35,487 nucleotides of DNA from Candidatus Methanophagales archaeon. GTDB lineage: Archaea > Halobacteriota > Syntropharchaeia > Alkanophagales > Methanospirareceae. The position numbers were made by a program, and so were the translations under genes. Every line of letters starts with the position of its first letter. Position 1 is the stretch's first letter. The notes beneath the pieces are model-generated. The model worked only from the letters and a program-made list of their open reading frames with translations, was not told where the DNA came from and did not search any database. Below, piece after piece: positions 3,605-33,664 of this stretch. The stretch lies in NCBI GenBank assembly GCA_030612835.1, contig JAUWND010000006.1:1-35487 (forward strand), in the 5' to 3' direction.

Positions 3605-5242
3605 ATGATGAGAAACAGAAGTATGTGCTTTTACGCATTGCTATTTGCAAGTTGTTTTTTGCTATTTGCTGTGCCTGCATCGGCAATGGCGGAAGAAGAA
3701 GGGTACCCTATGTTTCAATATGATGCACAAAGGACCGGAAATGTAAGCGGTATAGCGCCAGAAACGGCAACAATATTGTGGCAGTCGGGCGAAAAAACTT
3801 CGGGTTGCATACAGGCAGGACCGATTGTTTCCGATGGCAGGGTTTACATCTCTACTTGGTGGTCTTCGGGCATGAACATTAAAGGAAATGGTACTGATGC
3901 ACTCTATTGCATTAATGAGAGCACAGGCGAAGAGATCTGGAATAACACTGATGTTTATGGCGCATCCACGGCGGCGATAGCAAATGGGAAGTTGTTTGTG
4001 GGAACGCATATAGGGAACATAACATGTGTCAACGCGACGGGTGGAGATATAGAATGGAGTAAGAAGATAGAAGAGAACCCGTCGTGGAAGGGTGTTGCGT
4101 CTTCTCCGCTTGTGGTTGAAGACAAGGTGTATGTGTTAAGTTATTCAGATGGGACGCTCCATGCTTTCTCTTTCGATGGTGCAGAACATGGAAACTTCTC
4201 CACGGGCGGTGAGATATTCTGTTATGCATCGCCTTCCGCGTATGGAGATAAAATATACTTCGCTGGGAATAACGAGGGACAGCGTGCTTTATACTGCCTC
4301 GACTTGAACATGAGCGAGGAGGTTTGGAATTTCACGACAGAAACGGAGATACGAGGCTCACCCACTATTTGGGGCGAAGAGGAAATGGTTTTCTTTACTA
4401 CTGAATACATCCCAATGAAAGAATACGGGATTTACGCTGTCAATATGATAACAGGCGAAGAGATCTGGAATGTAACCCATTATTCAACTTGGGCTTCTCC
4501 TGCATTGAGCAATGGTAAGCTATATATTGGCGGCTCTACTGTTGACACCACCTTCTATTGTTACGATGCGCTAAATGGCACGTTATTATGGAAGAACGAG
4601 GAGATGGGAGGATCAATAAGTTCATCTCCTGTTGTTGCCGATGGTAAAGTGTACTTTGGAACAAACGAGGTGGATGGTACGGTATATGCATTGGATGCCG
4701 AGAATGGATCAAAACTATGGAACTATACACTTTACATACCCGAAGGATTCGGCGGCGGATTTAATATAGCGTCACCTCCTGCTATTTCCAACTCCACCTT
4801 GTTTATAGGAGTGGACAATGTGGGTGTTCTTGCGTTTAGAGATGCTACCTTCTGGGACGGTGAAGTAACATTAACGGAAAACACCACCGTTAACGTGACC
4901 GCACACAACAGCGGAGAAAGCTACGAGATAAATCAAACAACCGCGTTAGGGGCGCTTGATGCCGCAGCAGAAGCAGGCGGGTTCAAGTACTCTATAAGCG
5001 ATGAGTGGTATACGAGTTATGGTTCTTTCATGGTTGATTCTATTGCAGGGAAGGCAAGTGACCCTGTCACATGGGACGGTTGGCTCTACTGGGTGAACTA
5101 TCTCGATGACCCGATGCCTGCGGTTGGTGCGAACCTGTATGAAGTAGAAGATGGCGATGCCATAACCTATTATTATGGTGGAATGAGCACAACACCCGAT
5201 AACTCATCGATGGTGGTACGAATTCAGGTCCACCTGCCGTGA
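3605..5242 (+). CDS. secreted PQQ-like beta-propeller protein with C-terminal DUF4430 domain
   Basis: 545 residues. An N-terminal signal peptide (about 1-29, ending near ASAMA) exports it. Residues ~35-415 form repeated blades of the PQQ/quinoprotein-like type, with recurring patterns such as GKLFVGTHIGNITCVNA and DGKVYFGT. Residues ~417-545 match DUF4430, a domain related to the C-terminal part of transcobalamin/intrinsic factor: a TALGALDAA helix, VDSIAG, W-x-Y-W-V-N and EVEDGDAITYYY. No C-terminal anchor is seen, so it is secreted or held by other surface proteins. It lies 19 bases upstream of a BtuF-like gene, which supports a role in capturing a corrinoid or similar ligand outside the cell. 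The ligand is inferred. An alternative start three bases later (3608) is equally possible. Confidence 0.85.
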   Translation: MMRNRSMCFYALLFASCFLLFAVPASAMAEEEGYPMFQYDAQRTGNVSGIAPETATILWQSGEKTSGCIQAGPIVSDGRVYISTWWSSGMNIKGNGTDALYCINESTGEEIWNNTDVYGASTAAIANGKLFVGTHIGNITCVNATGGDIEWSKKIEENPSWKGVASSPLVVEDKVYVLSYSDGTLHAFSFDGAEHGNFSTGGEIFCYASPSAYGDKIYFAGNNEGQRALYCLDLNMSEEVWNFTTETEIRGSPTIWGEEEMVFFTTEYIPMKEYGIYAVNMITGEEIWNVTHYSTWASPALSNGKLYIGGSTVDTTFYCYDALNGTLLWKNEEMGGSISSSPVVADGKVYFGTNEVDGTVYALDAENGSKLWNYTLYIPEGFGGGFNIASPPAISNSTLFIGVDNVGVLAFRDATFWDGEVTLTENTTVNVTAHNSGESYEINQTTALGALDAAAEAGGFKYSISDEWYTSYGSFMVDSIAGKASDPVTWDGWLYWVNYLDDPMPAVGANLYEVEDGDAITYYYGGMSTTPDNSSMVVRIQVHLP

Positions 5243-5261
5243 CGACCGCAAAAAATCACAG

Positions 5262-6962
5262 ATGCAAAAGGGAAAAAGTATGATGGGTAAACACTCGCAA
5301 TTGGGTCAGAGTAGACTTACTCTTTCTCTTTTTCTCTTCTTTTTTATCTTTGTCTTGATCACCAGTGCAAGTTGCGCTCAATGGAACAGTGAGACCGGGG
5401 ATGTATCCAAGAATTTTTACGTTGATGTTCATATAGACGAGAGCAAAGAGGTAGAATTCTGCGTTAACTCTTCTGATTTGTCTCATAACTGGTCGTGGTC
5501 TGTTAATGGCGAGGAAATAGAAGAATCAAAAGGTGTAAGCTCAAATTTATCTTATACCTTTGAAGAATACGGCATTTACAACGTCTGTGTTGTAGGAGTA
5601 GGAGTAGGCGTAGAAGTAGGGGCAACAACAGAACGTGCATGCTGGAACGTTACGGTTTCGCTCGTAATAGGAGAAGAGAACGATCTCCGCGAGTTGGAGG
5701 GACTTGAGGATTATACGTTCAAAATTACAAAGCGACCAGCGCGGATTGTATCCCTGGCTCCAAGCTGCACAGAGATGTTATTCGCAGTCGGTGCAGGCGA
5801 TAGCGTTGTTGGCGTTACGGAATACTGCGATTATCCGTCCGAAATAGAGGATAAGAAGGAAAAAGGCGAGATTGTCGTTATAGGTGGCTATTCAACACCC
5901 AGTTTAGAAAGAATAATGGAGTTGGAGCCTGATTTGATAGTTGCCGCATATGGTAATCCATCGGATATCCTGTATTGGTTAATCGACGATAAGACGCACC
6001 CGGACATTGAATGCCCAGTTTACGCGCAAAATCCGAAAGAAATCGACACGATATTAGCTCATATGGACGTCCTGGGCACGATAACGAAAAGCAATGAAAC
6101 TGCATCTTCGCTACTTGATGATTCAAAATACAAGATAGCCGATATAGAAGAAAGAACGGAATTATTAAAACCCGAACAGCGACCACGGGTTTTCCGACCT
6201 TGTCCCGGATTTGTGACTTGTGGTAACAATACCTTCCTGAACGATGTTATATGGACTGCAGGAGGTGAGAACATTGCGGCTAAATACTTCGCAGGGTGGG
6301 GTGCGTTAAAGATAGAAGACATAATACACGAGAATCCACAAGTGATCCTGTGTCCGGCTACAGAAGAGGGAGAAAGTCTTGCATATGTGCAAATAATTGG
6401 TGAAGAGAGACTGAAAGAGGTGGATGCAGTAAGAAATAACAGGATTTACTTGATCATAGACGGTTTAATCAGTAGACCTGGTCCACGAGTAGCAAAAGCA
6501 ACAGAAAAAGTACTGGAATACCTATATGGGCTTTTTAATATCCCTGAAGAGTGCAGTACAGAAATAAACGGTGCATATTTCGGTGTTCCTAATTTCACTC
6601 TCGAACTCTCTGCGAAAGAGAACATCGCTCTACGGCTCAATATCTCAGCAGGTAACGGGTCTGAAATGGCGATTGTTCCTGAAATGGTAATTGGGAACTT
6701 TGTACGTATAGAAGTTAACGAAAGCGAAAGCGGGCATTTAGAAACAATAGACACAGTTGTAATAAGCATAGGCTACGATGAGGTCGAGTTAGAAGAAGCG
6801 GGCCTGGAAGAAACCCGCATAATGATTTGTTATTATGATGCAAGTGAAGAAGAGTGGAAACCGGTAAAAACAGACGTCTTTACTGAAGATAACATAGCAT
6901 CAGCGGGATTTTCTTGTCTAAACGAGGGTATTTATGGATTGACATTTACTAAGAATGAATGA
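5262..6962 (+). CDS. BtuF-type periplasmic binding protein 1
   Basis: 566 residues from 5262; the ATGs at 5280 and 5283 give a shorter, also plausible signal peptide. After the signal peptide comes a ~100-residue PKD-like beta domain (W-S-W-S-V-N-G). Next, at about 156-424, is a BtuF/FhuD-type solute-binding domain with KRPARIVSLAPSCTE, VGVTEYCDYP, GGYSTPSLE and LEPDLIVA. A C-terminal beta domain (~425-566) follows. These proteins deliver cobalamin, corrinoids or iron chelates to a FecCD-type permease. No membrane anchor is present, unlike its paralogue at 7651. Only 19 bases separate it from the upstream propeller gene. The exact substrate cannot be read from sequence. Confidence 0.87.
   Translation: MQKGKSMMGKHSQLGQSRLTLSLFLFFFIFVLITSASCAQWNSETGDVSKNFYVDVHIDESKEVEFCVNSSDLSHNWSWSVNGEEIEESKGVSSNLSYTFEEYGIYNVCVVGVGVGVEVGATTERACWNVTVSLVIGEENDLRELEGLEDYTFKITKRPARIVSLAPSCTEMLFAVGAGDSVVGVTEYCDYPSEIEDKKEKGEIVVIGGYSTPSLERIMELEPDLIVAAYGNPSDILYWLIDDKTHPDIECPVYAQNPKEIDTILAHMDVLGTITKSNETASSLLDDSKYKIADIEERTELLKPEQRPRVFRPCPGFVTCGNNTFLNDVIWTAGGENIAAKYFAGWGALKIEDIIHENPQVILCPATEEGESLAYVQIIGEERLKEVDAVRNNRIYLIIDGLISRPGPRVAKATEKVLEYLYGLFNIPEECSTEINGAYFGVPNFTLELSAKENIALRLNISAGNGSEMAIVPEMVIGNFVRIEVNESESGHLETIDTVVISIGYDEVELEEAGLEETRIMICYYDASEEEWKPVKTDVFTEDNIASAGFSCLNEGIYGLTFTKNE
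5589..5624 (+). repeat. GTAGGA-type short tandem repeat within the BtuF-like gene
   Basis: Near-identical hexamers (GTAGGA, GTAGGA, GTAGGC, GTAGAA) encode alternating Val-Gly/Glu in the PKD-like domain. The paralogue at 7651 lacks this insertion, so it looks like a local slippage expansion. Confidence 0.7.
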
Positions 6963-6997
6963 ATAGATAAATAAATGAATAAATAATTAAATAAATG
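6953..6997. repeat. AATG/AATA tetranucleotide repeat in the intergenic gap
   Basis: The end of the BtuF-like gene and the 32-base gap to the next gene consist of degenerate four-base repeats (AATG, AATA, AATAAAT). The repeats supply both the stop codon upstream and the start context downstream, and no ribosome-binding site is evident. Confidence 0.7.
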
Positions 6998-7654
6998 AAA
7001 GAAAAGAAGAAGGTTTTCTCCTCTTGGAGCGGCGGAAAGGATAGCAGTTTAGCATGTTATAAAGCACTGGGGGACGGGTTTGAGGTACGGCATCTCTTGA
7101 ATTTGCTATCAGAAGATGGTAAAAGGGAAAGAGCTCATGGTACTCGCCCTTTTTTATTGCGATTGCAATCAGAAGCTATGGAGATACCAATAGTTCATGT
7201 AAACGCTTCATGGGGCGAATATGAAAGCAAATTCAAGCATAAGGTAGGCGAATTGAAGCGTGAGGGCGTAATGGGCGGCATTTTCGGCGATATTGATCTG
7301 ATAGAGCATAGAGAATGGGTGGAGCGAGTGTGTACTGATCTCGAAATCGAGCCTATCCTTCCTCTTTGGGGTCTTGCACCCGAGGATATATTGCTCGAGT
7401 TCATAGATGCCGGATTCGAAGCAATTGTAGTGGCAACGAGGATAAAGCAGGAATGGCTCGGTAGAAAATTTGATAGAGCTTTTATAGCAGAGTTAAAGAA
7501 ATTCGAGTTCCATTTGTCCGGTGAATCCGGCGAGTATCATACTTTTGTAATTGACGGGCCTATTTTCAAGAGGCGGATAAAAGTGAGTGATTTTGAGCAG
7601 GTGTATGTGAACGGGACATGGTTTTTGGACATAAAAGCAGGAGAGCTGGAATGA
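6995..7654 (+). CDS. PP-loop ATP pyrophosphatase, Dph6-like (diphthine-ammonia ligase family)
   Basis: 219 residues. The PP-loop SGGKDS is at residues 12-17, and the family-typical E-x-x-G-E-Y-H-T-F segment lies near 175-185. The family (MJ0570-like, ATP_bind_4) includes Dph6, which amidates diphthine on elongation factor 2 using ATP and ammonia. Here the gene sits between two BtuF-like genes and its stop overlaps the start of the second (ATGA). That points to a specialised role in this uptake locus, for instance amidation of an imported corrinoid side chain, rather than, or besides, diphthamide synthesis. The latter is inference from position only. Confidence 0.85.
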   Translation: MKEKKKVFSSWSGGKDSSLACYKALGDGFEVRHLLNLLSEDGKRERAHGTRPFLLRLQSEAMEIPIVHVNASWGEYESKFKHKVGELKREGVMGGIFGDIDLIEHREWVERVCTDLEIEPILPLWGLAPEDILLEFIDAGFEAIVVATRIKQEWLGRKFDRAFIAELKKFEFHLSGESGEYHTFVIDGPIFKRRIKVSDFEQVYVNGTWFLDIKAGELE

Positions 7655-9609
7655 GCGCAAAAACAGGTTTTCTCGTTGCAGCTTCGGTATTACTGGTGTC
7701 AATCACCATTTGTACCTCCTGTGCGGGTAGCAACCTTACTCAATGGAACAGTGTGACAGAAGATGAACCTGATATTCCGGTGGATATTCATATGGGCGAG
7801 AGCAAGGATGTGGAATTCAGCGTTAAATCTTCTGATTTGTCTTATAACTGGTCGTGGTCTGTTAATGGCGAAGAAGTAAAAGAATCAGAAGGAGAAAGCG
7901 CAGATTTATCTTATACCTTTGCAGAATATGGCATTTATGACGTCCGTGTCGGGGGGCTAGGAGAAAATGGAACAGAGGAAGCCACCTGGGACGTTACAGT
8001 TTCGCTTGTAATAGACGAAGAAAACGACATCCGCAAGTTAGAGGGACTTGAAGATTATACGTTCAAAATATCAAAACGACCAGAGCGAATTGTATCTATG
8101 GCGCCGAGTGCAACTGAGATTCTATTCGCCGTTGGTGCTGGCGATAGCGTCATAGCTGTTACAGATTATTGCGATTATCCGCTAGAAGCAATAAAGGAAA
8201 AGAAGGATAACGGGGAAATAAAATCGATAGGCGGCTATTCAACGCCAAGCCTAGAGAAAATAGTGGATTTAGAGCCTGACCTAATAGTCGCAGCTCATGG
8301 TAACCCATCTGAGCTTTTATATTGGTTGGTGGACTCTAATGTGCACCCGGGCATTGAATATCCGGTTTATGCACAGCATCCGGGTAATATCGAAGATATA
8401 TTCGCGCATATGGAAATCATTGGTGAGCTAACGAAATGTGATGAAACAGCATCTTCAGTCGTGGCTGAGCTGAAAGATGACCTGCAAGAAATAGAAGAGA
8501 AAACGGAATCCTTAGATGAGGGGCAAAGACCACGAGTATATTATGCTATGGGTTCTATTCTCTATACCCCTGGTGAAGGTACATTTCAGCACGAGGTTAT
8601 CGAGATGGCGGGAGGAGAGAATATAGCCGCTAATTATCTCGCTTCCTGGGGCGTGTTTAGTATCGAGGATCTCATAGAAGAAGACCCGCAGGTTATCCTT
8701 TATAGCGGTCATGGTAGCGAGTCCATTGTACCCGATCAAATAAAGAATGACGAAAGACTGAGTACGATAGACGCGGTAAAAAACGACCGAGTATACCAAA
8801 TTAACGAAGGTGAAATATCAAGACCCGGTCCAAGGCTGGTAAATGTGACGAAAACTGTTTATGGACTTCTATATGATCTTTTTACTGTTTCAGATGATGA
8901 CGATGAGGAGAGTGAAGAAGATGACTACGGTAGTGGCGGGGATAGCCCATCACATGAGCCGAAAAAACGAGTAATAAAAGCAGGAGAAGAGAAGACAATG
9001 ATAATAGACGCTGTAGGCTTAAGAAACATCACAATAAAAGCAGAAGAAGAGGTAGAATTCATGAATATCTCTGTAACAGTATTAAATGATTTGAATATCG
9101 TTCAGCCACCTGCAATAGTTTACACCTGTTTCAATCTCAGCATGGTCAATCAAACAGGAAGTATCGAATGGTTCAAGTTGAACTTCAGCGTGAATAAATC
9201 ATGGGTGGCTGCTAATGCCAATAATAACACCACTGCAATTTCCCTCTTCTGCTATGATTACCACAATGATTCATGGGTCGAACAGAATGCAAGTGAAATA
9301 GTTTTAGGGGGTGGCAAAGACAAGGTCTATTACACAGCGACATGTCCTTCCGTGGGGACATTTGCTATTTGCACCATATCAAAGTCTAAATCGAAATTAG
9401 AAAGTGACGAGTTACAAATGCCTACTCCTACAGTTACATTAACGCCTTCAGCAACGCCTATACCCATCTCAGCACCTACTTCCTCCCCTGCCGCCACACC
9501 TACTCAAAAGCCATCTCAAACACCTGAGTCACCCGGATTTGAGGCGGTATTAGCAGTTGTTGGATTGCTTGCGGTAATGTATCATTTAAAAAGAAACAGG
9601 TTTGTTTAA
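7651..9609 (+). CDS. BtuF-type periplasmic binding protein 2, PGF-CTERM anchored
   Basis: 652 residues from the ATG at 7651, chosen over 7618 because it overlaps the upstream stop (ATGA), follows a GGAGAG site and begins a clean signal peptide. The order is: PKD-like domain; BtuF-like domain ~138-410 (KRPERIVSMAPSATE, VTDYCDYP, GGYSTPSLE); acidic Asp/Glu linker ~414-432; a beta domain of the PGF-pre-PGF kind ~440-590; a Thr/Pro-rich stretch ~590-626; then P-G-F near 628, a hydrophobic helix and a basic tail. This tail is the PGF-CTERM signal cut by archaeosortase, which leaves the protein lipid-anchored outside. It is a tandem paralogue of the gene at 5262 and is the likely membrane-proximal donor to the permease. 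Confidence 0.9.
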   Translation: MSAKTGFLVAASVLLVSITICTSCAGSNLTQWNSVTEDEPDIPVDIHMGESKDVEFSVKSSDLSYNWSWSVNGEEVKESEGESADLSYTFAEYGIYDVRVGGLGENGTEEATWDVTVSLVIDEENDIRKLEGLEDYTFKISKRPERIVSMAPSATEILFAVGAGDSVIAVTDYCDYPLEAIKEKKDNGEIKSIGGYSTPSLEKIVDLEPDLIVAAHGNPSELLYWLVDSNVHPGIEYPVYAQHPGNIEDIFAHMEIIGELTKCDETASSVVAELKDDLQEIEEKTESLDEGQRPRVYYAMGSILYTPGEGTFQHEVIEMAGGENIAANYLASWGVFSIEDLIEEDPQVILYSGHGSESIVPDQIKNDERLSTIDAVKNDRVYQINEGEISRPGPRLVNVTKTVYGLLYDLFTVSDDDDEESEEDDYGSGGDSPSHEPKKRVIKAGEEKTMIIDAVGLRNITIKAEEEVEFMNISVTVLNDLNIVQPPAIVYTCFNLSMVNQTGSIEWFKLNFSVNKSWVAANANNNTTAISLFCYDYHNDSWVEQNASEIVLGGGKDKVYYTATCPSVGTFAICTISKSKSKLESDELQMPTPTVTLTPSATPIPISAPTSSPAATPTQKPSQTPESPGFEAVLAVVGLLAVMYHLKRNRFV

Positions 9610-9657
9610 AAAGTCATAAACTATTTTAAAATCCAGACAGGACAAGAGGCAGTAACA

Positions 9658-9987
9658 ATGAATATTTACCACATAAGCTATACGCAAAAATTCGTGGGTG
9701 AACGGATGGCAATGCTATCTTTTAAGGGCTGTAACTTCGATTGTACGGGCTGTATCAGGAAAAGAAATGAATACGACCTCTATGCGGAAGAAAAGAGATA
9801 TATTGATTGGAGTCTCGAGAATATATTAAAGGAATTGGAAGAGTTGAATCCTCATAGGATCTATCTCGGTGGATACGAGCCTACACACGATCCCGACTTA
9901 ATAAAAGAAATCAGAGAAACGCCAAGGAAGGCAGAATTTATCGAAATTATACCTCATGGAAGAAAATCAATTATTGACACAGATTAA
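9658..9987 (+). CDS. radical SAM protein, 3'-truncated by a repeat element
   Basis: 109 residues, from an ATG preceded by AGGCAG. Residues GCNFDCTGCIRKR contain the CX3CX2C cluster motif that binds the 4Fe-4S cluster and SAM in radical SAM enzymes. Later residues (RIYLGGYEPT) resemble the GGEP region of activase-like members. Such proteins usually exceed 200 residues; this one ends where the palindromic repeat begins at 9971, and the last codons (IIDTD) and the stop come from the repeat itself. It is probably a gene broken by repeat insertion and likely inactive. Its original role in the locus is unknown. Confidence 0.75.
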   Translation: MNIYHISYTQKFVGERMAMLSFKGCNFDCTGCIRKRNEYDLYAEEKRYIDWSLENILKELEELNPHRIYLGGYEPTHDPDLIKEIRETPRKAEFIEIIPHGRKSIIDTD

Positions 9988-10076
9988 CGCAGATTAACAC
10001 AGAAGAAATTAAATCCGTGTAAATCTGTGTAAATCTGCGTCCTAAATTAAATTGATAGAAAGTATATTTTATATAC
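9971..10076 (+). repeat. palindromic repeat with promoter-like tail, copy 1
   Basis: The left arm is TTATTGACACAGATTAAC followed by further CAGATTAACACAG. The right arm, complementary in part, is CCGTGTAAATCTGTGT then AAATCTGCGTCC. The tail TAAATTAAATT leads into a TATA box (TATATTTTATATAC). Closely related copies lie at 30748 and 33665, and the arms recur around 25546-25986. It truncates the radical SAM gene and abuts the permease start. Confidence 0.85.
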
Positions 10077-10077
10077 A

Positions 10078-11118
10078 ATGAAAAAAGCAACCGCAACGCA
10101 GTTGAGTAAATTTGTCCACTGGAAGATGGTTATGATTTACTTAGTTGTACTTTTAGGCTTGAGTATCGTGCTGACAACGGCGATCGGACCAGTATATGTG
10201 CCGCCACTGGAAATTATCGCTTTGGTGGGGAGTAAATTACATCTCTGCGAGATCTCTTCTATATCGCACGAAACAATAATCTTCCGGGTAAGACTACCGC
10301 GGATACTTTTGGGTTTATTAGTTGGGCTCTCGCTGGCAACTGCCGGGACAACGCTGCAAGGACTATTTAAGAATCCTATGGCGGACCCATACATAATAGG
10401 GATAGCGTCTGGAGCCGCGGTTGGTGCGGTTCTCGCGATAACATTCATACCCTCTTTCTTCTCGATTTACACTATACCGATAATGGCCGTTGTCGGTGCC
10501 ATGTTCGCTACTTTTTTGGTCTATACCATTGCGCAAGTAAGAGGAAGAATACAGGTAGATACTTTGTTGCTCACGGGAATAGCGGTTTCGTTATTCTTCG
10601 GTGCTATATTATCTTATATGATGTTTCGGCATAGTCATGACCTGGCGGGGATCTTTTTTTGGACTATGGGTGGATTCTGGCTCGCTAATTGGACACAGGT
10701 GGAAATAATAGTCTTACCGGTTTTAGTTTGCTTCTTCTTGATTTATATATTCGCAAAGGATCTAAATGCAATGCTCTTAGGGGAAGAGACCGCACAGACA
10801 CTGGGTATAAATGTAGAGAACGTGAAGAGAATTATGTTGGTGCTTTCTGCATGTATTACCGCAGCGGCAGTTGCATTCGCAGGAACTATCGGATTCGTTG
10901 GCTTGATAATACCGCATATTACGAGATCACTCGTTGGGCCGGACCATCGGATCCTTTTCCCGGCTTCTGCATTAGTAGGTGGGATTTTCCTGATGTGGAC
11001 GGACGCATTGGCACGTTTATTGGGCGAAATGCCAGTGGGTATAATCACCGCTTTCTTTGGTGCGCCCTTCTTCATTTATCTACTTAGGACAAGGAAAAGC
11101 GGATATGGGTCAATGTAG
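10078..11118 (+). CDS. btuC: FecCD/BtuC family ABC transporter permease
   Basis: 346 residues, the usual length for BtuC/FecD permeases, with about ten predicted membrane segments. Family signatures are visible: LPRILLGLLVGLSLATAG, the coupling segment LLGEETAQTLGINV, and GTIGFVGLIIPHITR. It moves a vitamin B12-type corrinoid or metal chelate delivered by the BtuF-like proteins upstream. The cognate ATPase is missing from the window, so energy coupling must come from a gene elsewhere. The TATA box of the preceding repeat is only about 5-15 bases from this ATG. If that box is used, transcription would start inside the frame and an internal ATG (10126 or 10132, just before the first membrane segment) may be the real start. 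Confidence 0.9.
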   Translation: MKKATATQLSKFVHWKMVMIYLVVLLGLSIVLTTAIGPVYVPPLEIIALVGSKLHLCEISSISHETIIFRVRLPRILLGLLVGLSLATAGTTLQGLFKNPMADPYIIGIASGAAVGAVLAITFIPSFFSIYTIPIMAVVGAMFATFLVYTIAQVRGRIQVDTLLLTGIAVSLFFGAILSYMMFRHSHDLAGIFFWTMGGFWLANWTQVEIIVLPVLVCFFLIYIFAKDLNAMLLGEETAQTLGINVENVKRIMLVLSACITAAAVAFAGTIGFVGLIIPHITRSLVGPDHRILFPASALVGGIFLMWTDALARLLGEMPVGIITAFFGAPFFIYLLRTRKSGYGSM

Positions 11119-11201
11119 GCTCAGGGTACAAGAGCAGTTCCAACCTCGCCACATCCGAATGAATTCCGAAGCTTCCTTGTTGTTTACCTTTTCGCCGCAC
11201 T

Positions 11202-11465
11202 TTATCGGTCTTCCTCCAATATATTGTTGATTTCCTTCATCATCCTGGGATTTATTGATACTTCCAGTCCATAAGAAGTGGGTTTTGAGATCAAATAGCC
11301 AGTTTTAATTAACATTTTGAGAGCTTTCTTTATATCTCCCCTAATGCCTTTTGGAAAACCTTTAATGACATTATCTTCTGAAGTATGTCTGCGCCCAATG
11401 TAAAAATTACGTCTGAGCTTCAGAAGAATTTTCTTCTGATATTGGGTTAGTTCTCTTTGTGTCAT
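11202..11465 (-). CDS. small winged-helix-like protein
   Basis: 87 residues, basic, with a predicted helical N-terminus (QYQKKILLKLRRNFY), GRRHTSEDNVIKGFP, and a K-KALKMLIKTGYL segment followed by a short beta wing (SYGLEVSIN). The pattern suggests a single winged-helix DNA-binding domain. Small archaeal proteins of this look are common but I know no specific function. It is divergent from the regulator at 11539, with a 73-base intergenic region that must hold both promoters. Confidence 0.6.
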   Translation of the reverse strand: MTQRELTQYQKKILLKLRRNFYIGRRHTSEDNVIKGFPKGIRGDIKKALKMLIKTGYLISKPTSYGLEVSINPRMMKEINNILEEDR

Positions 11466-11538
11466 TTTTTGGGGTATATGTGATTCTCAGTTAGGGTATA
11501 TTTATTCAATAAGTTTAAATGTATCAATGGCATAATAA

Positions 11539-11910
11539 ATGTATGGGGTGATAAAAACGGCGTTAAAACATCTATTTGGAGAAACACCGGTAGTAAAGAT
11601 ACTGGATTTTTTGATAGACCATAAAGGCTATGAGTATTCTAAGATGGAAATTGCAGATAACTCGGATATCGAATGGGCGTCATTTAACGGGCATTGGATT
11701 CTATTAGAGGAATGGGAATTGGTGAAAGGGAGCAGAAAGATAGGAAATGAAACACGGTATACTTTGAATGAAGAAAATACGATAGTAAGAAAATTACTTG
11801 AATTCGATCATGAAGCGGCAATGTATATGTCAGAAAGGCTTGCAGAAAAAGAAATGGTGGATGAGAAAGTGCATACTGTGGAATTAGAGGCAATTAAAAT
11901 TCAGGGATAA
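11539..11910 (+). CDS. winged-helix transcriptional regulator
   Basis: 123 residues. Residues ~8-85 follow the archaeal winged-helix pattern: LFGETPVVKILDFLI, YEYSKMEIADNSDI (helices 2-3), W-x-L-L-E-E-W-E-L-V and a wing with R-K-I-G-N-E-T-R-Y-T-L. The recognition helix (EWASFNGHW) has lost the usual serine/threonine-rich character, so its target may have shifted. A TTTAAAT box about 20-25 bases upstream suggests a leaderless transcript. It is divergent from 11202; the regulated genes are unknown, the neighbouring surface genes being candidates. Confidence 0.7.
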   Translation: MYGVIKTALKHLFGETPVVKILDFLIDHKGYEYSKMEIADNSDIEWASFNGHWILLEEWELVKGSRKIGNETRYTLNEENTIVRKLLEFDHEAAMYMSERLAEKEMVDEKVHTVELEAIKIQG

Positions 11911-11935
11911 TAAAAATCGAAATAAAAAACACAAC

Positions 11936-12073
11936 TCGCGGATATACCCCTAAAATCAAAAGGATTCCCGGAAAAAGTAGAATATAAACTATCTAAAGAA
12001 CCTATTACGAAAAAAGGTCGAACTTACAGGTCTAATATTGTACCAGTTACATCAGGAGCTTCGGAAGTCTAAA
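11936..12073 (+). pseudogene. short open frame, probable surface-protein fragment
   Basis: This 45-codon open frame has no start codon. Its residues EYKLSKEPITKKGRTY and NIVPVTSGASEV look like the end of an immunoglobulin-like beta domain seen in archaeal surface proteins. It lies just before the decayed cohesin fragment and may belong to the same lost gene. The assignment is weak. Confidence 0.25.
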
Positions 12074-12084
12074 CTTGCTAGCTT

Positions 12085-12320
12085 GAACAGCAGGACTGCA
12101 CCGGGGCGTGTGGGACACCCCTAAAAGTCGCGGTAAAGGTAAGTATAACCCGTGGGACATATCCTGCGGGTGCGTGTAGCTATTGGGACGACATATACTA
12201 CAATCGGAACTGTGTGGATATAACAAATGTGGATCAGAGCATAATTACGAAGCTAATAACGAAGATAGTGACCAGGTAACACAGGAGTAAATCAACGGCT
12301 TCTGCACCTGTTGCTCACTT
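12085..12320 (+). pseudogene. decayed copy of the cohesin-like N-terminus
   Basis: Translation from 12094 gives DCTGACGTPLKVAVKV, then TRGTYPAGACSYWDDIYY and NCVDITNVDQS. These match residues ~35-90 of the 2102-residue protein (DSTGECGALTKVSVKI, SGTYPEGMCSYQDDIYY). After about 12243 the sequence jumps to material matching HEANNEDGDPVTQEW of the intact gene, with about 170 bases deleted, a shifted frame and stop codons. It is a paralogous remnant without start or downstream repeats. The remaining stretch to 12460 shows a TATA-like GGTATTTATATACC at 12403-12416 and no further gene. Confidence 0.75.
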
Positions 12321-12402
12321 TGTGCCGCTGCAGTGGCAGTTTATAATTATGTAATCTTTCCCTTTATTACCCATTTGGATTGCACTTGTTATCTAAAATT
12401 AG

Positions 12403-12416
12403 GGGTATTTATATAC
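12403..12416 (+). promoter_or_regulatory. putative TATA box for the dockerin-protein gene
   Basis: GGTATTTATATACC resembles an archaeal TATA element. It is preceded at 12367 by TTACCCATTTGGATT, similar to the 3249 and 3515 promoter elements. Confidence 0.4.
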
Positions 12417-12463
12417 CGCTCTCTCTTGTAGGTATGGTAGCGGGACATGAAGGAAGATAACAA

Positions 12464-13771
12464 AAAAAGTGTTGCCGCCCAGATGTATGGTCGTTTAATG
12501 CAAAAACGGGTGCTGAGAATGGGAATAAATATTACAACGGTCCTGCAAGCCCACCGTATTACCAGCTCTCAACGCCTGCTTATGGTGACGCCAAGATATT
12601 CTTTGGAATGAGCACGGGCGCCAAGAAAGGGCACGTCTTTGCGGTAAGCGCGAATGATGTAACTGTTAAGGTCTGGGAGAAGACGATAACTGAGAACGAG
12701 CAGATAGATACGCCGATAACATATGATAACAACAAGATCTATTTTGGGACCTGGAATGGAACAGCAGGCATGACCTATTCCGGCACATACTACTGTCTTA
12801 GTGCTGCGGATGGCACAGAACTCTGGAATTATCCCGCCACAGGAAACAACGGCTACTACTGGGCTGGCGCGTGCATAATTGACGACTACATCATCTTTGG
12901 TGATTGTCTTGGCAATATAACATGCTTGAATAAGAATACCGGCGCTTTAGTGGACGAAGAGAATCTTGCAGCGGTTAAGTCCATCACAGGAGCGATCAAG
13001 GCATCAGTTACCTGCAATGCAGCCGGCAGCAGGATTTACTTCTCTGAGGGATATACCAATGGCAGCACTCTAGGCGGACGTCTATGGGCGTACAACGTTA
13101 ACAGAACGACCGGAGACCTCACCTATGCATGGCGATGTCCTCTTAACACGATCACAACGTCCACACCGGTAGTTTATAATGGCCGCATCTACGTTGCGGA
13201 TGGCAGTTACCAAGCCAACGGCAGGCTCTATTCTATCTATGAGTCAAACGGCACGATCGAATGGTATTACGAAACCCCAGACAATAACGGTAATGGTTCG
13301 CCCGGTATAAAGGCGTCTCCAGTGATTTCTGTCGCTGGCAATGAGCTTTACATTTACTTTACTACAAACTGTGAGAACGGCAGGCTCTATTGCATAAATA
13401 AAACCGGCCAACTGTGCTGGTATTACGAACCTATGGAATCGACGGGGAGTGGAGAATACATCCTCCAGGGTGTTTCTGTCTACAGCAATGGGGGCGACAT
13501 GCGCGTCTTCTTCGGAAACGATGCCGGGACTCTATATGCACTCGATAAGGGCATGTGCGGGGATGTGGATGCAAATGGCGATATAAGAGCGAGTGATGCA
13601 CAAAAGATATGGAACCGAGCAGAAAACCCTGATTCCTTTCTCGATAGCCCTTGGGCTGCTGATGTCGATTGCAACGGCGAAATAAGTACAAGCGATGCTG
13701 AAATGGTCTGGATGCGTGCGATAGATACAAGTTATGACTTGAATTGCTGCTGTGATGACCCTGATGGGTGA
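12464..13771 (+). CDS. beta-propeller protein with C-terminal dockerin, 5' end degenerate
   Basis: The longest ATG-started frame begins at 12608 (387 residues), but clear coding similarity runs in the same frame back to about 12464 (DVWSFNAKTGAENG, YYQLSTPAYGDAKIFFG). No start codon exists there and a stop precedes it, next to a run of seven A. The signal peptide and first blade are thus lost or frameshifted. The propeller blades are PQQ-like (NKIYFGTWNG, GRIYVADGS, GTLYALDKG). From about 13557 there is a type I dockerin with two calcium-loop repeats, DVDANGDIRASDAQKIW and DVDCNGEISTSDAEMVW. Dockerins bind cohesins, and a cohesin-like domain opens the next gene 31 bases downstream. Either this is a recent pseudogene or it is expressed without export. 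Confidence 0.75.
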   Translation, partial: KKCCRPDVWSFNAKTGAENGNKYYNGPASPPYYQLSTPAYGDAKIFFGMSTGAKKGHVFAVSANDVTVKVWEKTITENEQIDTPITYDNNKIYFGTWNGTAGMTYSGTYYCLSAADGTELWNYPATGNNGYYWAGACIIDDYIIFGDCLGNITCLNKNTGALVDEENLAAVKSITGAIKASVTCNAAGSRIYFSEGYTNGSTLGGRLWAYNVNRTTGDLTYAWRCPLNTITTSTPVVYNGRIYVADGSYQANGRLYSIYESNGTIEWYYETPDNNGNGSPGIKASPVISVAGNELYIYFTTNCENGRLYCINKTGQLCWYYEPMESTGSGEYILQGVSVYSNGGDMRVFFGNDAGTLYALDKGMCGDVDANGDIRASDAQKIWNRAENPDSFLDSPWAADVDCNGEISTSDAEMVWMRAIDTSYDLNCCCDDPDG

Positions 13772-13802
13772 ATAGCGAAAAAAAAGGTTGTAAGAGGTAA
13801 AA

Positions 13803-16800
13803 ATGAGAGGGAAACGGGTGACAACTTCGCATTTTCCGCTGGCAATAGCGCTTTTGACCCTACTGCTGTTGAGCGTTGTGCCAGTCATAGCCGGTCCATC
13901 GGATGTATGGACCTGCTATCTCGAGCCGCAGGACAGCACAGGTGAATGCGGTGCTCTCACAAAAGTTTCTGTAAAGATCGGTATAACCAGTGGTACATAT
14001 CCTGAAGGTATGTGCAGTTACCAGGACGATATATATTACGATCCGAATTGTGTCAACGTGAAAGATGTGAATCAGAGCATGAGTCCGTTCACGTTGAATG
14101 CTTGGCATCTTTATGGCAACTATGTCCGGATTTCCAGTATGAACGGTCTGACCGAGGTACCAACTGGAGTCTATACAATTGCTGTGCTCACTCTGGAATG
14201 CAACGGCAGCAGCGCACCATGTTCCTGTGACCTGACCCACCAGAATCACGAAGCTAATAACGAAGACGGAGACCCAGTAACGCAGGAATGGATCAACAGC
14301 ACCTATACCTGCAGAACGGTAGAGAAGCCGGACTTAGTGATCAATAACTCGGTTAGCCTTAGTAATAGCAACTTCACGATAAATTACACCGTCACCAATA
14401 TTGGCACAGGGCTGGCAAATGAGAGCACGACCTGTAAGTATGTAGACGGGGAACTCAAAGAGAGCCAGACCTGCCCCACGTTGAACCCTGGAGAGAGCCA
14501 CAAAGGCACATTTAATCCCGAATCATGCCCATGTGGTTCAACCTACAATGTCACAGTGTGTGCAGATAGAGACAATGTAATCAACGAAAGCGACGAGACG
14601 AACAACTGCGCGGTGAACATTATAGAATGTCCCACCACCAAAGTGGATATCCGAGCGGATGGAATCGCAGGTACTATCTTTGGTGTATCCAGATACTCGA
14701 TTTGTCCGGGTACAGTAACAGAGGACTGGTACACCATAACTAATGAGACCGCGATGGGCGCTCTTGTGATCTATTGCCAGAATGACGGGATCAACGTCCA
14801 TATAATCATGACCGATTTGGGCGAATATTTGGTTCAGATCGGCAACGACTCGGCGGATAATAATAATTGGAAGTACGCGGTCAATGAGAAGGCCCCGCCA
14901 GTAGGTGGAGCTCAGAAGGCAATTGCTGATGGTGACCGGGTGCACTGGTACAACTACAATCTGCATTACTATGAGGTGCTCACCGCGCTTGACAAAACGG
15001 AACTAATAGTTGGTGGGAACCTAACAGCTACGGTTTCCTGGAAGAACATGACCGAAACCCACCTCCTGAGTGGTGCAAGTGTTTATGTTGGCGCTTTGCA
15101 TCCCTGGGGACCTGAAACAGGAACACATGTGGGAACCACAGGTGCTGATGGTACATGCAGCTTTTCATGGTCTAATCCAGGTGAATGGGGTGTCTATGCC
15201 GTTGATCCAGTTCATGGCAGTGGGCAATACAATTGGCCTTATGTGACCTTCACATGCAGAACAGAAGGGATGCCTGACTTAGTGATCAATAAGACAGTGT
15301 CCTTTAGTGATAGCACCTTCACGGTAAATTATACAGTCACTAATATAGGAATAGGTAGGGCGAATGAAAGCACAACTTGCAAGTATCTTGACGGCGTGCT
15401 TATGGAAAGTCAGAGGTGTCCTGCGTTAGAGCCTGGTGAAAGTTACAACGGCGCCTTTGATCCTGAACCGTGCCCAGGTGGTTCAACCCTCAATGTCACG
15501 GCGTGTGCGGATAACCACAATGTAGTTAACGAAAGTGACGAGACGAACAACTGCGAGGGGAACATCATAACCTGCCCGTCAACTACGAGGGTGGACATCC
15601 AAGCGGAGGGTATTGCGGGCACTATCTTTGGTGTCTCTGGATACTCGATTTGTCCGGGCACAGTAACAGAGGACGGGGTCACCATAAACAACGAGACAGC
15701 AATGGGCGCTGTTGTGATCTATTGTCAGAATAATGGTATCAACGTCCAGATAACAATGGGTTCATGGGGCGAATATCTACTCCAGATCGGCGACGACCAG
15801 GCGGATATTAACAATTGGATGTATGCAGTCAACGAGGAGGCACCACAAGTAGGAGGAGCTCAGAAAGAAATTGTTGATGGCGACCGGGTGCACTGGTATA
15901 ACTACAATCTGCATTACTATTCCGTGCTCACCGCGCTTGACAAAACGGAAATAGTGGTTGGTGAGAATCTAACCGCTAGGGTTTCCTGGAAGGCTATGGG
16001 CGGAACACACCCCCTGAGTGGTGCAAGCGTTTATGTTGGTGCTATGAGTCCCTGGGGACCTGAACCAGGAACACCTGTGGGAACCACCGGTGCAGATGGT
16101 GCAGATGGTACGTGCACGTTCTCATGGCCCACGGTAGGCACGTGGGGCGTCTATGCCATTGATCCAGTTCATGGCAGTGGTCAATACAATATGCCTTATG
16201 TGACATTCACATGCAGAACAGGGGGAAAGCCGGACTTAGTGATCAGCAAGACAGTGTCCTTTAGTGCTAGCACCGTCACGGTAAACTATACCGTCACTAA
16301 TATCGGAATAGTTAGGGCAAATGAAAGCACAACTTGCAAGTATGTGGACGGCGTGCTTATGGAAAGTCAGACGTGTCCTGCGTTAGACCCAGGTGCGAGT
16401 CACAAAGGCACATTTGATCCTGAACCGTGCCCATGTGGTTCAACCCTCAATGTCACGGCGTGTGCGGATAACAACAACGTAGTTAACGAAAGCGACGAGA
16501 CGAACAACTGCGAGGTGAACATCATAACCTGCCCGTCAACTACGAGGGTAGACATCCAAGCGGATGGTATTGCGGGCACTATCTTTGATGTCTCTGGATA
16601 CTCAATTTGTCCGGGCACAGTAACAGAGGACGGGGTCACCATAAAGAACGAGACAGCAATGGGCGCTGTTGTGATCTATTGTCAGAATAATGGTATCAAT
16701 GTCCAGATAACAATAGGTGCCTTGGGCGAATATCTACTCCAGATCGGCAATGACCCGGCAGATAATAATAATTGGATGTATGCAGTCAACGAGGAGGCAC

Positions 16801-19800
16801 CGCCAGTAGGTGGAGCTCAGAAAGCAATTGTTGATGGCGACCGGGTGCACTGGTATAACTACAAGTTGAATTACTACGCGGTGCTCACCACACTTGACAA
16901 AACGGAAATATTTGTTGGTGAGACTATAACCGCTACGGTTTCCTGGAAGGGTATGGACGGGACACAGCCCCTGAGTGGTGCAAGTGTTTATGTTGGTACT
17001 ATGGGTCCGTGGGGACCTGAACCAGGAACACATGTGGGAATCACAGGTGCTGATGGTACATGCAGCCTTTCATGGTCTAATCCAGGCGAATGGGCTGTCT
17101 ATGCCGTTGATCCAGTTCATGGCAGTGGTCAATACAATATGCCTTATGTGACATTCACATGCAAAACAGGGGGAAAGCCGGACTTAGTGATCAGCAAGAC
17201 AGTGTCCTTTAGTGCTAGCACCTTCACGGTAGACTATGCAGTCACGAATATCGGAATAGTTAGAGCAAATGAAAGCACAACTTGCAAGTATATTGACGGT
17301 GTGCTTATGGAAAGTCAGAGCTGTCCTGCGTTAGACCCTGGTGCGAGTCACAAAGGCACCTTTGATCCTGAACCGTGTCCAGGTGGTTCAACCCTCAATG
17401 TCACGGCGTGTGCAGATAACAACAACGTGGTTAACGAAAGTGACGAGACGAACAACTGCGAGGTGAACATCATAACCTGCTCGTCAACTACGAGTGTAGA
17501 CATACGAGCAGATGGAATCGCAGACAATATCTTTGATGTCTCTGGATATTCGATTTGGCCGGGCACAGTAACAGTGGACTGGGTCACCATAAAGAACGAG
17601 ACTGCGATGGGTGCTCTTGTGAGCTATTGTCAGAATAATGCTCTCAACGTTCAGATAGCAATAGGTACCTGGGGCGAATACGTGGTTCAGATCGGCAACG
17701 ACCCTATAGACAATGATAATTGGATGTATGCCGTCAACGAGGAGGTACCGCCAGTAGGAGGAGCTCAGAAAGAAATTGTTGATGGCGACCGGGTGCACTG
17801 GTATAACTACAATCTGCATTACTATGAGGTGCTCACTGCGATTGACAAAACGGAAATAGTGGTTGGTGAGAATCTAACCGCAACGGTTTCCTGGAAGGAC
17901 ATAACAGGAACGCACCTCCTGAGCGGCGCAAGTGTTTATGTTGGTGCTATTGGTTCCGGGGGACCTGAAACAGGAACACATGTGGGAACCACAGGTGTGG
18001 ATGGTACATGCACCTTTTCATGGTCTAATCCAGGCGAATGGGCTGTCTATGCCGTTGATCCAGTTCATGGCAGTGGACAATACAATTGGCCTTATGTAAC
18101 TTTCACATGCAGAACAGGGGGGAAGCCAGACTTGGAAGTCTATAAGACTGCTTTTCCTACTGGGGGTACAGTAGGTACAGACGTAAAATTCAGCATAAAC
18201 GTTACGAATACTGGTAACTGTACCCTAAATCCGGTGAGGGTTGTGGACATGTTGCCCGCAGGCATGAGCTATGTAGCAACAGGGACTACACCAGCACCAA
18301 GCAGTGTAGTCGGAAACGAAGTAACATGGAATAATGTAAGTTCTTTGGATCCTAGTGACTCAACTATAATCTCTCTTATTGCCCACATAGACGAAGGGGC
18401 TTCTGGAACATTGATAAATGACGTTACAGCTACAGGAACTCCGCCCTATGGTGCCGATGTTCACGATTCTGATACCGCAACGGTTACTGTGATGAACGTA
18501 TCAATATCAATAAATAAATCATGCTCACCGACTATCGTAGCACCTGGTGGAATACTGACATACACGATAAGTTGCTCCAATTCGGGTGTGGCGAATCTAA
18601 CGAATGTCACGATAACAGAAGACTATCCGGAAGGCATAACGTTCATCTCTGCCAATCCTGCTCCAGATCCCGGTACAAACAACATGTGGACAATAGGCAT
18701 CCTCCCTGTTGGTGAGTTCAGAACGATAACAATAAAGGTAAAGGTCCCGGATTCGCGTGATATAGCCTTTACAGAGACTGGCAGCGTAACAGGCGAAGGT
18801 TTTGTAATGGTTAGCAAAGAGCTATCCACAAAGCAAGAGCCATATACGCTCAAGAATGTAGTTACAATCGAATGTGCCGAGACAGACCCTGTAACTGCCT
18901 CTGCTTTTACGACTGTGAGTGGCATGCCTGGAACGAGCTTAGAGATTACCGAGAGTGGCAGTGGCAACTACAAGTCCGAAGAGATCTTGAACTTAGAGAC
19001 AAAGAACAAAAGTATCGGCCTTCAAAAGAGCACAGAAGCAGAATACCAACCTACTACCTTTAACTTCTCCGACAGCTTCTCTGTTAACTTTACTACCCTA
19101 TGGAAGCAGGACATCTGTAGCAAGAACCTGGTATTGAAAGATGCAATGCACAAGAAGATAAAGGATGCCACCTACATTAAGGATGATACGATAACCGAAA
19201 TGGGTGCGTATGGCACATCAATGGAATTTGACTCTTCTTTCTATGGTGCGGCACACATAGGCGCTGTATCAAAGGACATAACGACTTCAGAAGATTACAT
19301 CGGCGAGTTTGAGCTCTATTGGGCGACAAGAGAAGAGTGCAGGTATCTATTCAACTGGAGCCAGGTTCCGGGAAACGATAGCGAGAAACTGATACGGTAC
19401 CTCGTAGATGTTCTGGCTATCAAATGGGCTGTGAATGCAACCATCACCAAATCCAGTGACGACAAGATCATCCACATTTCTACCGATGGGCGCTCTGCCG
19501 AGATAGTAATGGGAGCAAATAATGAAACAGCAACGGTGAAAGTAGGTGCTGAGACAATATATGTTTTAGAGGTTAGAACTGAGGACGGCACGCTAAACGT
19601 ATACGATCGCAGACTGAAAGAGATGTCAGAAAGTGTGAGAGGAGTGGGATATGTGATGGTGGATAATGCGCTATCCAAGGGTCAAATACAGGTCGTAGAG
19701 CATGGAAGCGGAAACTATTCTTCTGACATGGTTTTTGACTCACATCAGCTTGACAAGGACACAGAAGCCGAATACCTGCCCACCACCTTTAACTTCTCTG

Positions 19801-20111
19801 GCGATTTTGGTGTTAACTTCTCTTCTATGTGGGTACAGGGCATATGTGCCAAGAACGAGAAGGCAGACACTGCGATACACAAGAAGATAAGCGATGCCTC
19901 CTCTATGGTGGATGATACAAATGCGACTAAGTCCACGATGAGATTTGAATCGTCATTCAATGGCTCTATGCATATAGGTGTAGGAACAAATAACACGAAG
20001 ATATCAGAGGATTACATTGGTGAGTTCTATGTTGTAGAGGCCATAGAAATACGTAACAAAAATGTGACCTCACAGAAGGAGAAAGAAGAAGAATGGATGG
20101 AGTGCCCCTAA
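13803..20111 (+). CDS. giant secreted surface protein: cohesin-like, four CARDB/DUF4430/Ig-like repeats, DUF11 domains
   Basis: 2102 residues with a signal peptide (cut near VIAG). Residues ~30-170 resemble a cohesin: an alternating beta pattern with YPEGMCSYQDDIYYDP, VNVKDVNQS and GVYTIAVLTLEC. Four repeats of 315-319 residues follow (from about 176, 491, 810 and 1126). Each contains a Cys-rich CARDB domain (PDLVI, NYTVTNIG, NESDETNNC), a DUF4430-like domain (NETAMGA, W-x-Y-A-V-N-E, DGDRVHWYNY) and an Ig-like segment (LSGASVYVGA, GSGQYN). Two DUF11 domains (~1442-1650) and a C-terminal part with an internal duplication (GSGNY, AEYxPTTFNF, SEDYIGEF) complete it. No sorting signal or terminal helix is visible, so anchoring may depend on partners. 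It is a plausible surface scaffold and ligand-capture protein; the specific ligand is inferred from DUF4430's relation to transcobalamin. Confidence 0.87.
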   Translation: MRGKRVTTSHFPLAIALLTLLLLSVVPVIAGPSDVWTCYLEPQDSTGECGALTKVSVKIGITSGTYPEGMCSYQDDIYYDPNCVNVKDVNQSMSPFTLNAWHLYGNYVRISSMNGLTEVPTGVYTIAVLTLECNGSSAPCSCDLTHQNHEANNEDGDPVTQEWINSTYTCRTVEKPDLVINNSVSLSNSNFTINYTVTNIGTGLANESTTCKYVDGELKESQTCPTLNPGESHKGTFNPESCPCGSTYNVTVCADRDNVINESDETNNCAVNIIECPTTKVDIRADGIAGTIFGVSRYSICPGTVTEDWYTITNETAMGALVIYCQNDGINVHIIMTDLGEYLVQIGNDSADNNNWKYAVNEKAPPVGGAQKAIADGDRVHWYNYNLHYYEVLTALDKTELIVGGNLTATVSWKNMTETHLLSGASVYVGALHPWGPETGTHVGTTGADGTCSFSWSNPGEWGVYAVDPVHGSGQYNWPYVTFTCRTEGMPDLVINKTVSFSDSTFTVNYTVTNIGIGRANESTTCKYLDGVLMESQRCPALEPGESYNGAFDPEPCPGGSTLNVTACADNHNVVNESDETNNCEGNIITCPSTTRVDIQAEGIAGTIFGVSGYSICPGTVTEDGVTINNETAMGAVVIYCQNNGINVQITMGSWGEYLLQIGDDQADINNWMYAVNEEAPQVGGAQKEIVDGDRVHWYNYNLHYYSVLTALDKTEIVVGENLTARVSWKAMGGTHPLSGASVYVGAMSPWGPEPGTPVGTTGADGADGTCTFSWPTVGTWGVYAIDPVHGSGQYNMPYVTFTCRTGGKPDLVISKTVSFSASTVTVNYTVTNIGIVRANESTTCKYVDGVLMESQTCPALDPGASHKGTFDPEPCPCGSTLNVTACADNNNVVNESDETNNCEVNIITCPSTTRVDIQADGIAGTIFDVSGYSICPGTVTEDGVTIKNETAMGAVVIYCQNNGINVQITIGALGEYLLQIGNDPADNNNWMYAVNEEAPPVGGAQKAIVDGDRVHWYNYKLNYYAVLTTLDKTEIFVGETITATVSWKGMDGTQPLSGASVYVGTMGPWGPEPGTHVGITGADGTCSLSWSNPGEWAVYAVDPVHGSGQYNMPYVTFTCKTGGKPDLVISKTVSFSASTFTVDYAVTNIGIVRANESTTCKYIDGVLMESQSCPALDPGASHKGTFDPEPCPGGSTLNVTACADNNNVVNESDETNNCEVNIITCSSTTSVDIRADGIADNIFDVSGYSIWPGTVTVDWVTIKNETAMGALVSYCQNNALNVQIAIGTWGEYVVQIGNDPIDNDNWMYAVNEEVPPVGGAQKEIVDGDRVHWYNYNLHYYEVLTAIDKTEIVVGENLTATVSWKDITGTHLLSGASVYVGAIGSGGPETGTHVGTTGVDGTCTFSWSNPGEWAVYAVDPVHGSGQYNWPYVTFTCRTGGKPDLEVYKTAFPTGGTVGTDVKFSINVTNTGNCTLNPVRVVDMLPAGMSYVATGTTPAPSSVVGNEVTWNNVSSLDPSDSTIISLIAHIDEGASGTLINDVTATGTPPYGADVHDSDTATVTVMNVSISINKSCSPTIVAPGGILTYTISCSNSGVANLTNVTITEDYPEGITFISANPAPDPGTNNMWTIGILPVGEFRTITIKVKVPDSRDIAFTETGSVTGEGFVMVSKELSTKQEPYTLKNVVTIECAETDPVTASAFTTVSGMPGTSLEITESGSGNYKSEEILNLETKNKSIGLQKSTEAEYQPTTFNFSDSFSVNFTTLWKQDICSKNLVLKDAMHKKIKDATYIKDDTITEMGAYGTSMEFDSSFYGAAHIGAVSKDITTSEDYIGEFELYWATREECRYLFNWSQVPGNDSEKLIRYLVDVLAIKWAVNATITKSSDDKIIHISTDGRSAEIVMGANNETATVKVGAETIYVLEVRTEDGTLNVYDRRLKEMSESVRGVGYVMVDNALSKGQIQVVEHGSGNYSSDMVFDSHQLDKDTEAEYLPTTFNFSGDFGVNFSSMWVQGICAKNEKADTAIHKKISDASSMVDDTNATKSTMRFESSFNGSMHIGVGTNNTKISEDYIGEFYVVEAIEIRNKNVTSQKEKEEEWMECP
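14331..18128 (+). repeat. four tandem ~948-bp coding repeats
   Basis: The word GACTTAGTGATCA begins units at 14331, 15276, 16233 and 17181, and a diverged start lies at 18129. The spacings are 945, 957, 948 and 948 bases, all multiples of three. Units 3 and 4 are the most alike at the DNA level. The second unit is 9 bases longer because GGTGCAGAT is doubled at 16089-16106. Confidence 0.9.
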
Positions 20112-25986: not shown

Positions 25987-26025
25987 TAAATTAAATTTAT
26001 GGGTAGAAGTTATACTTCATATACC
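25955..26025 (+). repeat. palindromic repeat right arm with promoter-like tail, copy 2
   Basis: TTTTCTGCGTAAATC, then AGTGTAAATCTGCGTCC, then TAAATTAAATT and GTAGAAGTTATACTTC match the right halves of copies 1, 3 and 4. The tail ends about 30 bases before the Bax1 start. Confidence 0.8.
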
Positions 26026-30739: not shown

Positions 30740-30747
30740 TAAAATTA

Positions 30748-30841: not shown

Positions 30842-30855
30842 AAAAATAAAATACT

Positions 30856-33612: not shown

Positions 33613-33664
33613 CTGGAGATGTTGTTAAAGCTAAAGCATTATAGGCTAAAAACAAAATAAAATA

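Follow-up and report, generated by a model that had tools for sequence, protein, structure and literature searches.

How do methanogens and anaerobic methanotrophs, which use corrinoids in central methyl transfer, obtain these compounds? For uncultured members this is, to our knowledge, poorly known, and the question is raised anew by a gene cluster on contig C79 of an ANME-1 (Methanophagales) archaeon, whose draft genome of 213 contigs is referred to here as G000. The contig was analyzed as one window of 35,487 nucleotides. Between positions 3605 and 20111, all on the plus strand, genes for surface proteins with DUF4430 domains accompany genes of a BtuF/BtuC-type importer. We consider it likely that this cluster serves to capture and import corrinoids (the B12 family).

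A first-pass annotation made from the sequence letters had described five DUF4430-like domains related to transcobalamin, one ending a propeller protein and four within a 2102-residue surface protein. Profile search with PF14478 (DUF4430; Pfam gathering cut-off 23.8 bits) confirmed all five, which individually reached 30.4–39.4 bits in the genome search. The first gene (3605–5242) encodes a secreted beta-propeller protein (PQQ_2, 118 bits) with a single C-terminal DUF4430 at residues 447–525 (positions 4940–5179, 30.7 bits). The large surface protein, called the giant in the following (13803–20111), carries four copies at 14745–14954 (34.2 bits), 15693–15902 (30.4 bits), 16653–16859 (32.4 bits) and 17598–17807 (39.4 bits), together reaching 92.5 bits.

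The proposed relationship to transcobalamin was recovered as well, the human B12 carriers being the top matches of the archaeal profile in the PDB. When a profile built from 18 DUF4430 domains of the window and its relatives was compared with 177,635 PDB sequences, eight matched: seven B12 carriers of human or mammalian origin (haptocorrin, transcobalamin-2, intrinsic factor) and the structural-genomics protein 3u7z, with E values of only 0.02–0.4. With 27 diverse archaeal domains, three of them from the window, haptocorrin was matched at E=5e-4 and transcobalamin-2 at E=0.003, some unrelated proteins following further down the list. Profiles were needed for this result; one giant repeat used as a single-sequence query returned no PDB match. 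The aligned core reads TSWGLVVSSI in intrinsic factor, RSWGPYITCIQGLC in haptocorrin, TSWGPFVxCIAGKC in the consensus of archaeal proteins joining DUF4430 to an alpha/alpha toroid, and GTWGEYVVQI in the fourth repeat of the window. The B12 contacts have been placed in the hairpin after the helix and in the adjoining strands (Burroughs et al. 2007, PMC1796856). Cobalamin and cobinamide are bound by the human beta-domain on its own (PMC5599065), and binding by the beta-domain precedes closure of the alpha-domain (PMC11107200), so that a DUF4430 lacking a toroid could in principle, by analogy, capture a corrinoid.

Downstream of the propeller gene follow BtuF1 (5262–6962), a PKD-like domain and a BtuF-type binding protein in one chain (Peripla_BP_2, 108.9 bits); a DUF71-B12 (COG2102) PP-loop ATPase, predicted to be a B12 salvage protein (6995–7654; PF01902, 179 bits); BtuF2 (7618–9609; Peripla_BP_2, 122.5 bits), a second BtuF-type binding protein with a PGF-CTERM membrane anchor (29.8 bits); the remnant of a radical-SAM gene (9658–9987); and a BtuC-type permease (10078–11118; FecCD, 315.6 bits). 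With gaps of 19, 32, −37, 48 and 90 bases, these genes are spaced as in an operon. Pfam confirms the two BtuF-like proteins and the BtuC-like permease noticed earlier between the DUF4430 genes. Over about 730 bases BtuF1 and BtuF2 are 75% identical; a C-terminal anchor was not seen in BtuF1. Among the NCBIfam models, BtuC scored best with the B12 BtuC model (350 bits vs. 226 for the best model of another substrate), and both BtuFs with TIGR04281, a PGF-CTERM-anchored substrate-binding protein, followed by B12 BtuF. The window contains no BtuD gene; a homologue sits on contig C184, so that homologues of the complete BtuCDF importer are present in G000. When only models with a named substrate are considered, both BtuFs, BtuC and this BtuD score best with those for B12. 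Compared with the PDB, BtuC was uninformative as a substrate marker, since hydroxamate, heme and B12 permeases all match.

Similar arrangements are found in other archaea. Within ANME-1 the order propeller-DUF4430, BtuF, DUF71-B12, BtuF, radical-SAM, BtuC recurs, whole or in part, in the genomes G002, G003, G015, G016, G023, G024 and G033. In G023 a BtuF, a propeller and two DUF4430 are combined in one protein of 1173 residues, in G012 a propeller, DUF4430 and BtuF in one of 1103 residues, and further propeller-BtuF fusions occur in G015, G024 and G002. For the phylum, one extracellular DUF4430 locus per genome was taken from 40 genomes of nine families outside the ANME-1 family, and compared with 20 control regions, mostly displaced by 300 kb within carrier genomes. 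Propellers were present at all 40 test loci, toroids at 37, BtuF at 35, and BtuC and BtuD at 23 each; the controls contained no propeller, no toroid, one BtuF, one BtuC and four BtuD. The neighbourhood profiles were built from loci of the same analysis, and since some of the 40 genomes are closely related to one another, the p value of 4e-10 overstates independence. At the level of families, six of these nine were found to have BtuF close to DUF4430. The gene-order comparison that the first-pass annotation had suggested therefore places DUF4430 beside BtuF (35 of 40 loci vs. 1 of 20 controls), and no homologous cluster pointed to iron.

Frequent orders are a propeller-DUF4430 protein, a DUF4430-toroid protein and BtuF, or a propeller-DUF4430 protein, a separate DUF4430 protein and a toroid-BtuF fusion. 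DUF4430 and toroid in a single chain is the architecture of transcobalamin, and the toroid-BtuF fusion, to judge from sequence, links the toroid to the importer. No alpha/alpha toroid was found in five genomes of the window's genus, the window included. With no toroid found, with damaged genes and with BtuD located elsewhere, the window's version of the cluster is a derived one.

The gene between BtuF1 and BtuF2 bears on the identity of the substrate. Its product reached 132.8 bits with the Dph6 equivalog, under the cut-off of 197.3, and its signature GESGEYH holds the histidine that marks DUF71-B12, not the Dph6 motif. The published motifs are ENGEF/YH for DUF71-B12 and EGGE/DxE for Dph6; DUF71-B12 is predicted to salvage B12, and 75 of 102 members adjoin B12 transporter genes (de Crecy-Lagard et al. 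2012, PMC3541065). In the window and most orthologues the N of the published motif is replaced by S (ESGEYH), and the DUF71-B12 motif is retained in six of seven related copies. The gene also adjoins transporter genes in a second cluster of G000 (BtuF, DUF71-B12, radical-SAM, BtuC) on contig C52 (L158, G000:C52:59–8751), whose neighbour is a 1661-residue beta-helix/PA14/PKD surface protein, not a propeller-DUF4430 protein. The other DUF71 homologue of the genome is of Dph6 type (EGGEFE; G000:C163:3361–4008, L168); it forms the C-terminal part of a frame of about 720 residues, the N-terminal part of which resembles, by eye, an asparagine-synthase-type protein.

The window's genome encodes CbiZ, a salvage enzyme. 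Genomes of ANME-1 that lack CbiD and CbiC and possess an extracellular DUF4430 include G006 (98% complete), G012 and G020, and G006 and G012 additionally carry CbiZ. Four lines point to a corrinoid as the substrate, namely DUF71-B12, the scores with B12 models, CbiZ, and the ANME-1 carriers without CbiD and CbiC, the last being statistically weak. A small protein consisting of an ArsR-type helix-turn-helix and a DUF4430 was observed as well (G000:C171:332–847, L043), with similar proteins in most ANME-1 genomes searched. By analogy it would be a natural candidate for a cytoplasmic sensor of the same ligand, a ligand-sensor role having been proposed for ArsR fusions (Burroughs et al. 2007, PMC1796856). 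M. mazei MM2441 was dropped as a DUF4430 regulator, the paper making no mention of the domain.

In the mechanism that we propose, corrinoids would be bound outside the cell by the secreted propeller-DUF4430 protein and, with less certainty, by the giant. The ligand would pass to BtuF1, for which no anchor was seen, and to membrane-anchored BtuF2, and BtuC would import it together with the BtuD encoded elsewhere. In the cytoplasm, DUF71-B12 and CbiZ would process the corrinoid to usable intermediates. Elsewhere in archaea the toroid is the partner of DUF4430, as in animal transcobalamin; in the window's genus the propeller may take this place. The fusions of propeller or DUF4430 with BtuF argue for a direct hand-off. 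The initial idea that extracellular proteins gather a corrinoid and deliver it to BtuF2 is well supported in its link to corrinoids, through carrier homology, DUF71-B12, the BtuF fusions and the conserved neighbourhood; the hand-off to BtuF2 and the role of the giant we infer.

Several observations weigh against such a system. The importer proteins miss the NCBIfam cut-offs for B12 equivalogs (BtuC 350 vs. 461, BtuD 341 vs. 537, the BtuFs also below). The predicted model of the fourth-repeat DUF4430 is weak (pLDDT 54). It shows strands, helix and strands in an order that would match the beta-grasp fold, and among PDB folds haptocorrin with cyanocobalamin comes closest to it (probability 0.82, E 0.11); as structural proof it was rejected, and it was used as support only. 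Several genes in the window's copy are damaged, and in two relatives (L046, L071) the giant occurs without a nearby BtuF on the sequence available. Of the 40 carriers examined outside ANME-1, 30 have CbiD; CbiD and CbiC both occur in the window's genome, and the system is not significantly more frequent in genomes lacking CbiD (p 0.27). The need for scavenging is for this reason unproven, and missing de novo corrin genes, suggestive in single genomes, are overall not significant as evidence.

One alternative concerns the giant. Its unit of about 316 residues (CARDB, DUF4430, Ig-like; CARDB 219 bits) occurs four times, starting near residues 281, 597, 916 and 1232, with 81–86% identity between units at the DNA level, and the units are followed by DUF11 domains. 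Upstream of it lies a second propeller gene with a C-terminal dockerin, 5'-truncated and found by tblastn with the orthologue of G002 (12485–13771, gene 12608–13771; Dockerin_1 23.7 bits vs. cut-off 22.9). Between BtuC and this gene there are 1366 bases, decayed coding sequence among them, and the giant starts 31 bases past it. The two could thus be a separate gene pair, forming an adhesion or sheath structure whose DUF4430 does not bind corrinoids, next to an import operon for corrinoids confined to 3605–11118. CARDB, DUF11 and dockerin are surface domains of a general kind, the DUF4430 of the giant type shares only 24–26% identity with that of the first propeller protein, and in L046 and L071 such a pair stands without BtuF. 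On the other hand, the giant copies retain the WGxYxxxI core and exceed the Pfam cut-off, the giant adjoins the import operon in both G000 and G002, and propeller plus DUF4430 is the standard pair elsewhere. We regard a mere neighbourhood of two functions as plausible but on balance doubtful; the proximity, seen too in G002, suggests that the giant belongs to the capture system. A cohesin at its N-terminus, which would be the counterpart of the dockerin, reached 12.1 bits against a cut-off of 24.1 and found no support in the PDB.

Instead of a corrinoid, the captured ligand might be another tetrapyrrole or chelate, for instance heme, F430 (a nickel tetrapyrrole) or one of its precursors, or an iron complex; DUF4430 would then have been turned from B12 to a new use. 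A distinct metabolite was indeed suggested for the archaeal proteins because many archaea possess the B12 pathway (Burroughs et al. 2007, PMC1796856), which agrees with the distribution of CbiD given above. Moreover, heme and siderophores are among the ligands of the BtuF fold family, and BtuC also gives good scores with permeases for heme and hydroxamates. Against this, the DUF71-B12 protein is encoded within the operon, BtuF2, BtuC and BtuD score higher with B12 models than with those for heme or iron, and ANME-1 genomes without CbiD and CbiC retain the system. We therefore judge a different ligand to be unlikely.

Compared with the PDB, the toroids of the relatives match squalene-hopene cyclases (E 6e-20), and a sequence homology to the alpha-domain of transcobalamin was unsupported. 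Secreted toroids beside DUF4430 and BtuF (e.g. L047:5723–6949, L056:1532–2785) retain a DxDDT-like motif of the sort known from squalene-hopene cyclases. That toroid and DUF4430 act outside the cell as a pair that binds or modifies lipids or terpenoids instead of a B12 carrier, as this match and motif might indicate, is very improbable given that the toroid is fused to BtuF or DUF4430 in most loci and that the alpha-domain of transcobalamin is itself a toroid cooperating with the beta-domain (PMC1796856).

The damage mentioned above concerns several genes. From residue 102 of the G002 orthologue onwards the second propeller is 88% identical to it; the first approximately 100 residues and the signal peptide are gone. 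A decayed copy of the giant's N-terminus with in-frame stops (12040–12344) lies upstream. The gene is a probable pseudogene, or else the product of an assembly error, and part of the gene damage in the window may generally stem from the draft assembly. The radical-SAM gene is broken off at a dispersed repeat having palindromic parts. Such intergenic repeats of about 60–130 bp, with palindromic ACACAGATT parts, were observed at 9960–10086, 25964–26024, 30729–30852 and 33647–33775. The radical-SAM protein, about 255 residues long in relatives, recurs in clusters of this kind (L080:10464–11225, L158:1123–1893, window 9658–9987) and is missing between BtuF2 and BtuC in G002; its top models, MoaA and a tungsten-cofactor maturase, are both far sub-threshold. 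Known RNA families, riboswitches included, were not found in the window at gathering thresholds. Outside the cluster, a surface protein encoded on the minus strand (27890–29800) contains five fibronectin type III domains, the repeats being 66–75% identical at the DNA level, and a short, probably truncated open reading frame (33268–33612) resembles by eye the C-terminal part of a glutamine cyclotransferase.

Beyond the cluster itself, a wider picture can be drawn tentatively, and we hold it to be somewhat short of an even chance. In this picture a phylum-wide surface machine for B12 scavenging would have been built from the intrinsic factor/transcobalamin domain fused to an ABC binding protein, with capture and hand-off along linked proteins; in the window's genus the propeller would have replaced the toroid, and the domain would have been amplified in a giant with four sites. 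If true, many uncultured methanogens and anaerobic methanotrophs use surface homologues of human intrinsic factor and transcobalamin, gene-fused to a BtuF-type importer. This would settle whether the archaeal versions scavenge another metabolite, as Burroughs et al. suggested, offer prokaryotic relatives with which to trace how the animal B12 carriers arose, and turn corrinoid exchange in methane-oxidising consortia into an assayable hypothesis. No paper joining DUF4430 and BtuF in archaea was found in the literature searched, most subscription journals lying beyond its reach. New here are the linkage to BtuF, BtuC and DUF71-B12, the fusions with BtuF, the wide occurrence in the phylum and the giant version with four domains.

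In comparison with known systems, the importer resembles BtuCDF in having BtuF and BtuC in one operon and BtuD in the same genome; it differs by two PKD-bearing BtuF paralogues, one of them PGF-CTERM-anchored, and by the position of BtuD outside the operon. The salvage protein shares with the DUF71-B12 subfamily the histidine in place of the Dph6 glutamate and the adjacency to BtuF, and deviates in its signature, ESGEYH instead of ENGEF/YH (PMC3541065). In function, the proposed system is similar to the surface lipoproteins BtuG and BtuH of Bacteroides, which are reported to catch B12 and pass it to a transporter; here this is proposed from the genes. Unlike BtuG, the propeller of the 3605–5242 protein (AlphaFold2 model, pLDDT 72.9, BamB-like) has BamB and quinoproteins as fold matches, BtuG being absent from the 50 best, and the archaeon has no outer membrane. 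BtuH is reported to belong to another domain family (DUF4465). Related as well are the prokaryotic transcobalamin-clade SLBB proteins, for which fusions to toroid, propeller and ArsR as well as operons with CbiO/CbiQ were noted and surface scavenging of B12 was predicted (Burroughs et al. 2007, PMC1796856); in contrast to those, the archaeal clusters described here are linked to BtuF, BtuC and DUF71-B12, with BtuF fusions. With transcobalamin, haptocorrin and intrinsic factor the DUF4430 proteins share the homologous beta-domain (DUF4430/SLBB), the WGxxVxxI core and secretion. They differ from these vertebrate carriers in that, in the window and its genus, a propeller or tandem repeats occur and no toroid was found, and in that the ligand would be delivered to a BtuF-type ABC importer instead of a receptor.

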